The position numbers and the translations under genes were made by a program. A stretch of 64,000 nucleotides of DNA from assembly GCA_947448025.1 (NCBI GenBank), contig CANFLV010000015.1, positions 1 to 64,000 of the forward strand, read 5' to 3'. This document shows, piece after piece, positions 22,300 to 50,676 of this stretch. The notes beneath the pieces are model-generated. The model saw nothing but the letters and a program-made list of their open reading frames with translations, had not been told where the DNA came from and ran no database searches. Each line of letters starts with the position of its first letter. Positions within the stretch are counted from its first letter, which is position 1. The DNA comes from Oxalobacteraceae bacterium (lineage in GTDB: Bacteria > Pseudomonadota > Gammaproteobacteria > Burkholderiales > Burkholderiaceae_D).

Positions 22300-23081
22300 G
22301 AACCTAATGTAATCCCTCAGGAATTTGGCTAACTACTGGTTTCATAAGCACTTTTTAACTATCCACAGTCCCTGTGGATAACTTTGTGGACAAGCATCCC
22401 CTAAGTGGCCTGAACGCCTGATTTTATGCGGCTTCCGGCGGATTGCCTAAAAGAATGGCAAAAATTAATTCCCATAAAATCAATCACTTACAATTAGGTA
22501 AAACACGACCATCACAATATCGCCGGATTTTCACTGCGAACCTAGCTCCGTTCCGATTTTGTGCATAAGTCGGCTGTTGAGTGCGCGATCTGTTCACTTT
22601 TTCGTGAGTGACAACAAATATCGGTGAATTTTTCTGATTTTTCAGTCGCACTGGAAAATAATCAAAAACCCAGATTTTATTTTTAATTGTCAATGCAACA
22701 GAAATGCCAAATTGCCAATCGCCATAACTGCATCACTTAAAGTGAAATGTCAGCTTATGGGCTAAGCCCCCGATTCATAAGCGCTTTTTAATTTATGCAC
22801 ACAGCCTGTGGATAACTTTGTGGACAAGTCCCTATTGACATGCTTGAAAGCCAGTCTACAAGCGGCTTCCGGGGAAATGGCAAAATGAAAAGCGAAATTT
22901 AATTCCTTTAAAATCAAGGACTTAAAATTCGTCATTCAAGCCAAAAAATATTTTTCACAAAAATATTTTTTGCCATGTGCCATGCCTTTATTGTGCATAA
23001 GCTTCTAATGACCGTGAAAAACAGGCTGGATTTGTAGCTGTTTTACACCGAAATACATCAGCGCAAACAGCATGCATCACA
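22300..23081. repeat. Gene-free, AT-rich region with a duplicated DnaA-box cluster
   Basis: No convincing gene. Two diverged copies of about 150 bases (22341-22495 and 22776-22935) each contain CATAAGC-CTTTTTAA, then the 20-base core TGTGGATAACTTTGTGGACA, then GCGGCTTCCGG, ATGGCAAAA and an A/T-rich tail. Consensus DnaA boxes (TGTGGATAA) lie at 22373-22381 and 22807-22815. One-mismatch boxes (TGTGGACAA) are at 22385-22393 and 22819-22827, and an inverted one (CTATCCACA) is at 22359-22367. A near-palindrome AAAAATATTTTTxACAAAAATATTTTT-type stretch sits near 22945-22972. The region separates priA and hemE, which are both leftward. Confidence 0.75.
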
Positions 23082-39966: not shown

Positions 39967-39982
39967 TGTTTCACGTGAAACG
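39967..39982. promoter_or_regulatory. parS site 1
   Basis: TGTTTCACGTGAAACG, one base off the consensus chromosomal parS TGTTTCACGTGAAACA. The 14-base core is a perfect palindrome. It lies in the 240-base gap between mnmG and the TSUP gene. Confidence 0.93.
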
Positions 39983-40046: not shown

Positions 40047-40062
40047 TGTTTCACGTGAAACC
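40047..40062. promoter_or_regulatory. parS site 2
   Basis: TGTTTCACGTGAAACC, with the same perfect 14-base core as site 1, exactly 80 bases downstream. It ends 16 bases before the TSUP stop codon. Confidence 0.93.
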
Positions 40063-47125: not shown

Positions 47126-48757
47126 TCAGGAACGATGCGCTGCGCGTATCCAGGCAGAAGCTTGCTCCGCAATCATGATCGTCGGTGAGTTCGTGTTTCC
47201 GGAGGTGATTGTTGGCATGACCGACGCATCGACCACACGCAGTCCGGCGACATGACGCACGCGCAACTCACTATCGACGACTGCCATCACATCATCATCG
47301 CGACCCATCTTGCAAGTGCCCACGGGATGGAAAATCGTCGTGCCGATATCACCGGCTACACGCGCCAGCTCTTCTTCCGTGCGGAATTGCAAGCCCGGCT
47401 TGAATTCTTCCGGCGCGTATTTTTTCAGGGCCGGTGCTTCAACGATCTGCCGCGTCAGACGCAAGGCGTCGGCGGCGACTTTACGGTCTTCCGCAGTACT
47501 CAAGTAATTTGGCGTAATCGTCGGCGCAATGTTTGTGTCGGCAGAGCTGATACGAACATGACCCCGCGAAGTGGGGCGCAAATTACAGACGCTGGCAGTA
47601 ATCGCCGGAAACGGATGCAAAGGATCACCGAATTTTTCCAGTGATAAGGGCTGTACATGATATTGCAGGTTTGCACTAGCCTGCCCTGGATCGGAACGCG
47701 TAAACGCACCAAGCTGCGACGGCGCCATCGACATCGGGCCGCTGCGTTTCAATGCATATTCGAGTCCGATCATCATCTTGCCATGCCATGTAGACGCCAT
47801 CGTATTCAAGGTTTTTGCGCCGCTGACCTTGAACGCCATGCGTAGCTGCAAATGATCCTGCAAGTTTTCACCAACGCCGGGCGCGTCAACGACGACCGGG
47901 ATTCCATGCTCTTGCAGTAAGGTCGCAGGGCCGATCCCGGAGACCTGAAGAATTTGTGGAGAACCGACCGCTCCGGCAGCAAGTATGGTTTCACGCGTGG
48001 ATTCGGCAAACCATTGCTGGCCTCCACCGGTGAACTCTACCCCAGTGCAGACTTTGCCCTCTGGTCGCGTTTCAATACGCAGGCGCGTGACATGGGCACC
48101 GGTCATGATGTCGAGATTACCGCGCCGCGTTGCGTTCTTTAGGAAAGCCTGGGCAGTATTCCAGCGCAAGCCGCTCTTCTGGTTCACATCGAAATAACCG
48201 CAGCCTTCATTATCGCCACGATTGAAATCATCGCTCATCGGTATGCCGGTCTCGGCGGCAGCCGCACGGAAGGCATCGAGGATTTCCCAGGAAAGCCGTT
48301 GTTTTTCCACACGCCATTCGCCACCCGCACCATGAAATTCATTAGCGCCGGCATGATGGTCTTCGGTTTTCTTGAAAACAGGTAACACCTGATTCCAGCT
48401 CCAACGACTGTCGTCGCTCAGTTTTGCCCATTCATCGTAGTCCCGTTCCTGGCCGCGCATGTAAATCATGCCATTGATGGAAGAACAGCCACCGAGGACC
48501 TTGCCACGCGGATAAATAAGGCTGCGACCATTCAGTCCAGGTTCGGCTGCGGTACGAAAACGCCAGTCAGTGCGCGGATTATCGATGCAATACAAGTAAC
48601 CGACTGGAATATGCACCCAGATGTAATCATCCTTGCCACCCGCTTCCAGCAACAAGACTGATACATCCTTGTCGCGCGTCAACCGGTTTGCCAGCACACA
48701 ACCTGCGCTGCCGGCACCAATAATGATGTAATCGTATTTACCTGCGGATGCTGTCAT
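47126..48757 (-). CDS. GMC family alcohol / choline dehydrogenase-type flavoenzyme
   Basis: 543-residue FAD enzyme. YDYIIIGAGSAGCVLANRLT is the N-terminal dinucleotide motif; YPRGKVLGGCSSINGMIYMR and GAVGSPQILQVSGIGPA are GMC signatures 1 and 2. The catalytic His is probably in IGTTIFHPVGTCKMG. By sequence this is a membrane-associated or soluble alcohol/choline dehydrogenase (AlkJ/BetA group). No betaine genes are nearby, so a general alcohol substrate is likelier. Single gene between the liv operon and the DnaA-box region. Confidence 0.92.
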   Translation of the reverse strand: MTASAGKYDYIIIGAGSAGCVLANRLTRDKDVSVLLLEAGGKDDYIWVHIPVGYLYCIDNPRTDWRFRTAAEPGLNGRSLIYPRGKVLGGCSSINGMIYMRGQERDYDEWAKLSDDSRWSWNQVLPVFKKTEDHHAGANEFHGAGGEWRVEKQRLSWEILDAFRAAAAETGIPMSDDFNRGDNEGCGYFDVNQKSGLRWNTAQAFLKNATRRGNLDIMTGAHVTRLRIETRPEGKVCTGVEFTGGGQQWFAESTRETILAAGAVGSPQILQVSGIGPATLLQEHGIPVVVDAPGVGENLQDHLQLRMAFKVSGAKTLNTMASTWHGKMMIGLEYALKRSGPMSMAPSQLGAFTRSDPGQASANLQYHVQPLSLEKFGDPLHPFPAITASVCNLRPTSRGHVRISSADTNIAPTITPNYLSTAEDRKVAADALRLTRQIVEAPALKKYAPEEFKPGLQFRTEEELARVAGDIGTTIFHPVGTCKMGRDDDVMAVVDSELRVRHVAGLRVVDASVMPTITSGNTNSPTIMIAEQASAWIRAAHRS

Positions 48758-48849
48758 GGTGTCTTGGAATAAAAATTATTGGCCATAGCGTAACCGATTG
48801 GCTCGACAGAAACAGCAACATTTCTCCGGTCTGTTGCGGCCATATAGGA

Positions 48850-49079
48850 CTGTGGATAAGCCTCTGGATATCTTTAAAGTCGATTGTGGATAAGTCCCGA
48901 CTTGTTCCTGCGATGAAATCTGTCCAGAATTTGTCCGCACCTGATACAGGGCTTATGCATGACTTATAAATTCGCCAATCCTTTGATTGCAAAACGCTTT
49001 TCGCACTTATCCACAGAAATCGACTTACGTTAACAACTACTACTAAACGTATATATAAACAATATATTAAAAACCAGCC
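48850..49079 (+). repeat. Origin-like repeat unit 1 (DnaA boxes, trio, AT-rich)
   Basis: Consensus DnaA boxes TGTGGATAA at 48851-48859 and 48885-48893, and an inverted TTATCCACA at 49007-49015. About 21 bases after the last box comes CTACTACTA (49037-49045), resembling a DnaA-trio tract. It is followed by an almost pure A/T run (49046-49075) that could unwind. Same length and spacing as unit 2, 406 bases away. Confidence 0.75.
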
Positions 49080-49255
49080 GCAAATTCCTCACGCGATTTA
49101 GCCGAAGAAAGGAAATTTCCAAAACACAATGCAGGAATAAATGAACCTTCAGGAAACAAGCTATACGCAGCTTGTTGAAATGCTCAGTAAGAGATAGGTA
49201 ATTAAATATGAAAAAGACATTGCCATTCGTAGCAACATTACCCTGTAGACAAGTT

Positions 49256-49485
49256 TTGTGGATAAACCTCTGGATATCTCTTGTGATTATTGTGAATAAG
49301 TCCGGACTTATTCCTGCTGCGAAAACTATCCAGAATTTACCAGCCAGTGATACAGGGTTTATGCAGGACTTATAAATTCGCCAAACCCTTGATTTTAAAA
49401 ATCTTTTATCGCTTATCCACAGAAATCACGCTACGTTAACAACTACTACTAAGCATATATATAAACAATATATTAAAAACCAGCC
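49256..49485 (+). repeat. Origin-like repeat unit 2 (DnaA boxes, trio, AT-rich)
   Basis: Consensus box TGTGGATAA at 49257-49265, one-mismatch TGTGAATAA at 49291-49299, and inverted TTATCCACA at 49413-49421. CTACTACTA lies at 49443-49451, then an A/T run to about 49481. It aligns base for base with unit 1 across most of its length, including CTCTGGATATCT and GACTTATAAATTCGCC, with scattered differences showing an older duplication. Confidence 0.75.
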
Positions 49486-49746
49486 CCACATGCTTGGCCG
49501 ACTTTGTCTGAAAAAACTGCCTCAAAAGCAAGACGAAGAACGAGCGTTCAAAGAATAATGGGTATAGAGGCCGCTGGTGAGCTCTAAAAGTGCAAACAAC
49601 ACTCGAGGGTATGCGAGAGATGCAAAAACGCGCCAGCAAGCGATTAAGGCATGCTGACGCGTCAGATACTCCAGGTAAGAACACCGGATTTCATGATTAC
49701 CAGGTTCATATGGGAATTTACACAGCTTGCTTGAACTCAAATCAGT

Positions 49747-50676
49747 TTAGCCACCTTCCCCTGCAGTACGACTCAGATGACCACGTAGCCATTTATGCAC
49801 GGCACTGCGGGCATCACGTTCGTGCCACAACATGTCAACGTTGACTTCCGGCAGTTTGAAGGGCAAATCCTTGATGATGAAGGCATCAGCCATACCAGTG
49901 GAAGCAATCAGATGGCGCGGCAACACAGTGATGAGGTCGGAACTCGACACGACTTGACCCGCCGTATAAAACTGATTCACAGTAAGTGTAATGTGACGTT
50001 CACGGCCGATTTGCGCCAAAGTCTCGTCCGATAGGCCATGCGCGCGCCCGGAAAAACTCACTAGCAAATGTTTCGCAGAACAATATCGGTCGAGTGTCAG
50101 TTCAAGATTAGCCAATGGATGCTCTTTGCGCATTACGCAAACGTAATGACCAGAATACAAGCGCTCATGCCGAATCGGTGTTTCCGGGCCGCCTGAGAGC
50201 TGGGCCACCACGCCCGGGAAAAAGCCAATTGCCAGATCGATATCCGAGCGCAGGAGCATCGGGCGCGGCTCACGCGTGGTCAGTGGCACCATTCGTACCT
50301 GAACGCCCGGTGCATCGTGTTCAATCGCTCGAACGAGCGAGGGAAGCCACAAGACAGCCGTTGCATCGGCCATTGCCATGCGTAAGGTCGCATGCACTTT
50401 CGAAATATCAAAATTCGTCGGCGCGACCGCTTCCTCAAGATCCGATAAGGCACGACGCACCACAGGCCATAATTCCTCGGCACGCGGCGTCGGCTTAACG
50501 CCGTGGGCGGTACGGATCAAGAGTTCGTCATTGAGCGTGTCACGCAAACGGCGCAAGGCATTCGACACAGCAGGTTGTGTCATAGCGAGATGACCGGCTG
50601 CCCGTGTCAGGTTTTGCTCGGTCATGACAGCATCAAAAACGCGCAACAGATTCAGATCAAGGTTTAAAAAACTCAT
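49747..50676 (-). CDS. LysR family transcriptional regulator
   Basis: 309-residue DNA-binding regulator. The N-terminal winged helix-turn-helix is NLTRAAGHLAMTQPAVSNAL, followed by RRLRDTLNDELLIR. The C-terminal ligand-binding domain is present in full. The ATG at 50676 is preferred to a TTG at 50691. Divergent from the small membrane protein gene at 50835, which is a candidate target; the natural ligand is not inferable. Confidence 0.9.
   Translation of the reverse strand: MSFLNLDLNLLRVFDAVMTEQNLTRAAGHLAMTQPAVSNALRRLRDTLNDELLIRTAHGVKPTPRAEELWPVVRRALSDLEEAVAPTNFDISKVHATLRMAMADATAVLWLPSLVRAIEHDAPGVQVRMVPLTTREPRPMLLRSDIDLAIGFFPGVVAQLSGGPETPIRHERLYSGHYVCVMRKEHPLANLELTLDRYCSAKHLLVSFSGRAHGLSDETLAQIGRERHITLTVNQFYTAGQVVSSSDLITVLPRHLIASTGMADAFIIKDLPFKLPEVNVDMLWHERDARSAVHKWLRGHLSRTAGEGG

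Follow-up and report, generated by a model that had tools for sequence, protein, structure and literature searches.

A bacterial chromosome normally has one origin of replication and one unwinding site. In E. coli oriC, which adjoins mnmG, an AT-rich element and a DnaA box are followed by an IHF-like site and two boxes of opposite orientation, the elements named DUE, R1 and R2/R4. A more general module, the basal origin unwinding system (BUS), consists of a DnaA box and DnaA-trios (PMC6669920, PMC8287927). The bipartite origins of B. subtilis and H. pylori have two DnaA-box clusters close together, and only one half is required for unwinding in vitro (PMC6669920). The predicted origin of chromosome 1 of Cupriavidus metallidurans CH34, 213 nt with three perfect DnaA boxes at a skew transition, lies ~90 kb from dnaA, and a further 65-nt cluster contains four one-mismatch boxes (PMC2864759); separation of an origin from dnaA is thus not new. 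For Herbaspirillum seropedicae, GC skew and gene positions led to an origin possibly between dnaA and dnaN, or else upstream of dnaA (PMC3093359). In the literature searched, with subscription papers and databases such as DoriC outside its scope, we came across no account of complete origin cassettes repeated in tandem in Oxalobacteraceae.

Sites that regulate DnaA have also been described. DARS1 and DARS2 share their core spacing (PMC5742627), and the DARS2 core was reported to be conserved among gammaproteobacteria related to E. coli (Kasho 2014; PMC4245941), a later review giving its conservation as beta or gamma. The literature searched yielded nothing useful on datA- or DARS-like sites in Betaproteobacteria. 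A hemE-adjacent cluster in Ralstonia pickettii has been proposed as a putative second origin (Gao 2015; PMC4403523).

Two tandem copies of an origin-like unit

The window analysed here is the first 64 kb (64,000 nt) of a 109-kb contig, in an Oxalobacteraceae genome of 3.7 Mb in 85 contigs. The intergenic interval 48758-49746 is flanked by leftward genes for a GMC oxidoreductase and a LysR regulator and contains two direct repeat copies of 260 nt each (48851-49110 and 49257-49516), which are 80% identical and spaced by 406 nt, confirming the duplicated unit of the original prediction. From left to right, each copy contains a pair of leftward DnaA boxes, then an IHF site and a rightward DnaA box, and finally the trio tract CTACTACTA and an AT-rich tract (Table 1), so that the DnaA-box cluster adjoins an AT-rich element. 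The prediction had counted two or three DnaA boxes per unit, and three are present in each, one of them in copy 2 with a mismatch; the trio-like tract was rightly placed in both units. The AT-rich stretch after the trios is also found in both copies, but at 83% over 30 nt its description as nearly pure A/T was slightly strong. Neither the IHF sites nor the other doubled DnaA-box element, at 22359-23000, had been predicted.

Table 1. Features of the two origin-like units and of the doubled element between priA and hemE (window coordinates)
Feature	Position	Strand	Basis
Candidate oriC unit 1 (complete initiation cassette)	48848..49085	+	profile match 48848-49075, E 8e-42; repeat family; end extended by eye across AT-rich tract
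Unit 1 distal DnaA box, TTATCCACA	48851..48859	-	box scan
Unit 1 second DnaA box, TTATCCACA	48885..48893	-	box scan
Unit 1 IHF site, perfect WATCAANNNNTTR match, start 31 nt ahead of DUE-side box	48976..48988	-	consensus scan
Unit 1 DUE-side DnaA box (R1-like), TTATCCACA	49007..49015	+	box scan
Unit 1 DnaA-trio tract CTACTACTA	49037..49045	+	
Unit 1 AT-rich tract (putative unwinding element)	49046..49085	.	first 30 nt 83% A/T
Candidate oriC unit 2 (complete initiation cassette)	49254..49491	+	profile match 49254-49481, E 5e-40; repeat family; end extended by eye across AT-rich tract
Unit 2 distal DnaA box, TTATCCACA	49257..49265	-	box scan
Unit 2 second DnaA box, TTATTCACA (one mismatch)	49291..49299	-	box scan
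Unit 2 IHF site, perfect WATCAANNNNTTR match	49382..49394	-	consensus scan
Unit 2 DUE-side DnaA box, TTATCCACA	49413..49421	+	box scan
Unit 2 DnaA-trio tract CTACTACTA	49443..49451	+	
Unit 2 AT-rich tract (putative unwinding element)	49452..49491	.	first 30 nt 83% A/T
DARS-like core 1, boxes +,-,-, 14/12 nt start-to-start	22359..22393	+	geometry as E. coli DARS1/DARS2
IHF site, DARS-like copy 1	22478..22490	+	consensus scan
Distal DnaA box TTATGCACA, DARS-like copy 1	22560..22568	-	box scan
DARS-like core 2, boxes +,-,-, 14/12 nt start-to-start	22793..22827	+	geometry as E. coli DARS1/DARS2
IHF site, DARS-like copy 2	22912..22924	+	consensus scan
Distal DnaA box TTATGCACA, DARS-like copy 2	22992..23000	-	box scan

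The clustering of these boxes is not due to chance. The genome contains 22 perfect TTATCCACA boxes (4 for the reversed-pattern control), and 5 of the 22 lie in a single 571-base stretch across the two copies (binomial p ~4e-15). Strict matches to the IHF consensus WATCAANNNNTTR number nine on the 109-kb contig, two of them in the units and two in the priA-hemE element. Over the first 225 positions of the two copies, the core elements, as picked by the analyst, differ at 3 of 55 positions and the remainder at 36 of 170 (p = 0.007, Fisher's exact test); the final 35 positions, past the AT-rich tract, show 14 differences. An Rfam scan of 48700-49800 gave nothing at gathering thresholds, so no listed RNA family accounts for the repeat, and a promoter and terminator scan found 1 and 0, under the shuffled means of 2.8 and 1.1.

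Comparison with described origins

The units have the order and orientation of an E. coli-type oriC (DUE, R1, IHF, R2/R4), including the 18-nt gap between the R1 box and the IHF-like site, which in E. coli matches with two mismatches. Several features set them apart: there are two complete cassettes; no GATC occurs in 48848-49110 or 49254-49516, and hence no GATC cluster of the E. coli type; the trio tract stands next to the box; and the units lie ~9 kb from mnmG. Among 80 pattern-found units, 69 have 156-158 nt between the outer leftward box and the rightward box, which is close to 15 helical turns, whereas the distance is 180 nt in E. coli oriC. In 48 of 60 units, an IHF site with no more than one mismatch starts exactly 31 nt ahead of the rightward box, compared with 0.09% at other offsets.

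With the BUS, the units share a consensus box, then at least three trios (3'-GAT-5') and then an AT-rich tract (PMC6669920, PMC8287927), CTACTACTA following TTATCCACA in both copies. The published search rule limits the box-to-trio distance to 16 bp, and the spacer is 21 nt here (49016-49036 in unit 1) and 17 nt in many relatives. The units may therefore work like a BUS but are not filed as members under this rule, and they differ from it in having two such modules per origin. The C. metallidurans origin, compared by description and not by sequence, is described as one region in PMC2864759, as opposed to the two tandem cassettes found in this genome. Unlike the bipartite origins, where unwinding in vitro needs only one half, the two copies here each have a trio tract and an AT-rich tract, and they are homologues of one another.

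Conservation and copy number in Oxalobacteraceae

To a profile built from 60 units, picked by hand from 95 matches in ~3-kb loci, 373 of 392 Oxalobacteraceae genomes show matches, 57 of them once, 202 twice and 114 three times. These are matches anywhere in the genome, with five candidates scored per genome, and were read off the profile-search table by counting the ones and threes and taking the remainder of the 373 as two. The 57 single-copy genomes, together with the 19 of 392 without a match at threshold, indicate that doubling is not indispensable. The duplication, which the original prediction expected to be unusual for an unwinding region, is real and common in the family, and so not an oddity of this genome.

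A nucleotide search of 100 genomes (our own included) found the unit in 30, and the profile search was needed. A second profile applied to the ~3-kb loci of 49 genomes gave one, two and three matches in 10, 32 and 7 genomes, respectively; the single-copy results are limited by the locus size, and two of the seven triples are two full copies plus a fragment. This set combines the 30 nucleotide-search genomes with 19 of 30 pattern-search loci and includes one genome (G075) outside Oxalobacteraceae; nine pattern loci were left out as repeat genomes (L136, L137, L140, L143, L144, L149, L159, L161 and L163) and two (L154 and L158) with the rest of the unit missing at the match. The pattern search counts overlapping trio matches, and its per-genome numbers were not taken as copy numbers. 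Among 80 named loci retrieved with the GMC protein as query, many of those without a match being non-Oxalobacteraceae, 42 have matches, with one in 13, two in 26 and three in 3 (fragments included). All 11 Herbaspirillum-labelled loci, among which H. seropedicae itself was not identified, carry units next to the GMC gene, one being cut by a contig end.

The position of the units is also conserved. The gene order mnmG-liv genes-GMC-units-LysR is kept in all four single-contig relatives examined, with the LysR gene 0.3 to ~15 kb past the units, and the GMC oxidoreductase gene stays next to the units in the relatives examined while dnaA lies anywhere from 6 to 363 kb away. In a tree of the 60 units, read without support values, copies of like position group across species in several genera, which suggests that both copies have been retained. 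Pairing within genomes is also seen: for 14 of 48 units of multi-copy genomes, the closest neighbour comes from the same genome (shuffled mean 1.2). Duplicates in some genera look old and retained; those in others, including this genome, look younger or homogenised.

Inverted unit copies occur in some relatives. Two units facing each other or pointing apart, with ~0.4-2.6 kb between them and trio tracts on opposite strands, were seen in seven genomes (G222, G211, G166, G003, G018, G234 and G167). In one genus, a lone DnaA box with an ACTATTA tract lies away from the units and is near-identical in three species (G122:C4:94696, G182:C60:48343 and G203:C25:225092).

GC skew and position relative to dnaA

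The start of dnaA is found 23 kb rightward of the units. In the region upstream of dnaA there is one perfect DnaA box, and a scan of that region gave no trio tract. The cumulative GC-skew minimum of the contig is at 51,567, 2 kb from unit 2 (109 kb of the genome scanned); the other disparity curves turn elsewhere, with the RY minimum at 95.7 kb and the MK and AT maxima at 60.8 kb. As predicted, transcription on the left runs away from the units, mnmG, parA and parB all being leftward. Two one-mismatch parS-like sites are located just upstream of mnmG (39967-39982 and 40047-40062), ~9 kb from the units.

In complete relatives, the lowest skew of 400-560 contiguous kb scanned around the units is close to them in three genomes. 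In G048, where dnaA is at base 13, 363 kb from the units, the minimum (362,962; 400 kb scanned) is 271 bases ahead of the first box, and the boxes of three units span 363,233-364,336. The minimum of G054 (2,047,955) is ~7 kb off the units (~2,040.2-2,041.4 kb), which are 61 kb from dnaA (1,978 kb), and that of G033 (359,416) is ~4 kb off the units (~354.6-355.3 kb), which are 19 kb from dnaA (374 kb). The fit is loose in G030, whose minimum is 39 kb from units lying 280 kb from dnaA, and G028 is a misfit to the origin reading, its lowest skew being ~70 kb from the units and ~20 kb from dnaA, with 48 kb between units and dnaA. In G027 the units and dnaA are ~6 kb apart.

Homologous units between dnaA and dnaN

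The unit profile matches 173 of 300 genomes from the order, ten of the 300 belonging to the family. The best 30 loci of these genomes were read, using our own dnaN and gyrB, identities confirmed, as queries for the dnaA-dnaN context. The dnaA-dnaN interval is the site of the unit in 14 of the 21 loci outside Oxalobacteraceae; among these 14 genomes, 13 show a single match overall and G542 shows two. The dnaA-dnaN gap of our genome contains a unit fragment at contig 74159-74208, which matches positions 11-60 of the 250 in the profile (E 3.6e-9, searched in 1.6 kb), and one DnaA box is left in this gap in the four relatives examined. The fragment is apparently a remnant of the ancestral origin. 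In the simplest reading, the origin probably left the dnaA-dnaN gap for the GMC-LysR interval and was multiplied afterwards.

A doubled DARS-like element between priA and hemE

The priA-hemE element (22359-23000), 26 kb from the units, consists of two copies 434 bases apart, in each of which box I opposes boxes II and III at the spacing given in Table 1. The same geometry is present in E. coli K-12 at 813,107 and 2,969,135, matching the positions given for DARS1 and DARS2 (0.81 and 2.97 Mb), and it is absent from the E. coli sequence retrieved around oriC and datA and from 10 shuffled contigs. The core scan also matched one origin unit of G030, and it gave one core each instead of two in G054 and G033. 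The 10 copies of five genomes all have the IHF site at 104-106 nt from box II, in one case with a mismatch, and nine of them have the distal box at 184-188 nt. As pattern counts, with the context checked for few, the exact core occurs in 125 of 266 genomes of the class and 128 of 185 of the family, where the patterns are often tandem pairs; a reversed-pattern control gave 0 among the matches listed. The element differs from E. coli DARS1 and DARS2 in being tandemly doubled, in its priA-hemE location and in having an IHF site per copy. The DARS2 regulatory region comprises IHF and Fis sites, of which the IHF half is seen in both copies here. The exact geometry together with the IHF site points to a DARS-like element.

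Discussion

We consider it highly probable that 48848-49491 is a relocated chromosomal oriC of two complete tandem cassettes, accompanied by a doubled DARS-like site 26 kb away. The original prediction had proposed a chromosomal oriC apart from dnaA, with a duplicated part of it or a titration site as alternatives; the oriC gains support from the skew minimum of the contig, family-wide conservation, synteny in four relatives, the skew of complete relatives (close in G048, G033 and G054, loose in G030, against in G028) and homology to dnaA-dnaN units in other families. In each cassette, DnaA would bind the trio-side box as well as the distal pair, which has the opposite orientation, and IHF would bend the intervening DNA so that the distal DnaA could join the box-bound DnaA. 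The DnaA filament may then extend onto the trio strand, the AT-rich tract open and the helicase load. Judging from the sequence, both cassettes are likely to work; either can probably fire, and two cassettes (one to three in relatives) may raise or buffer the chance of initiation. The doubled element at 22359-23000 probably recharges DnaA nearby. More tentatively, two or three independently competent units could form a dosage device, paired with multiplied DARS, in which initiation is set by cassette number and box affinity.

It is possible, if doubtful, that one cassette is the working origin and that the other is a retained duplicate which binds DnaA and helps or restrains initiation without opening itself. 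The bipartite origins of B. subtilis and H. pylori offer a precedent, and the second box of copy 2 (TTATTCACA) is weaker; yet both copies keep every part, including the trios and the AT-rich tract, several genera have conserved the copy at each position from species to species, and some relatives have three full copies or inverted ones. That the units are DnaA titration or regulatory sites, with the origin beside dnaA as proposed for H. seropedicae, seems very unlikely. DnaA boxes do occur here upstream of dnaA and between dnaA and dnaN, and the skew minimum of G028 is nearer dnaA; however, the dnaA-dnaN gap has only the unit fragment, and the skew minima follow the units in G048, G054, G033 and our own contig.

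Two other roles can be considered for the priA-hemE element. Its DnaA boxes cluster beside hemE, as in the R. pickettii cluster listed as oriC 1 in PMC4403523, and it might itself be a second origin. We find this highly improbable, because the unit profile has two matches in this genome, both at 49 kb, CTACTACTA is missing from the element, and its box geometry, with Ralstonia compared by description, points to DARS rather than to a second origin. An unlikely but less remote reading is a datA-like site, which would inactivate or titrate DnaA rather than recharge it. DnaA boxes and an IHF site near the origin are also found in E. coli datA, but the essential datA boxes share one directionality (PMC5742627), whereas box I here opposes boxes II and III at the exact DARS spacing.

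Two or three full cassettes are retained by most of the sampled Oxalobacteraceae genomes, and within the family these cassettes appear to have been moved off dnaA. This raises the questions of which cassette opens, whether one or both helicases are loaded per cassette, and how firing is kept to once per cycle. The present reading would correct origins put beside dnaA by convention, and it would give a simple spacing rule to find DARS candidates in beta- and gammaproteobacteria. As a separate observation, additional DARS-like cores occur off the origin region in one genus, in rows of two or three (G054:C1:3592772-3593012, G151:C3:308369-309533 and G116:C4:404830-406579).
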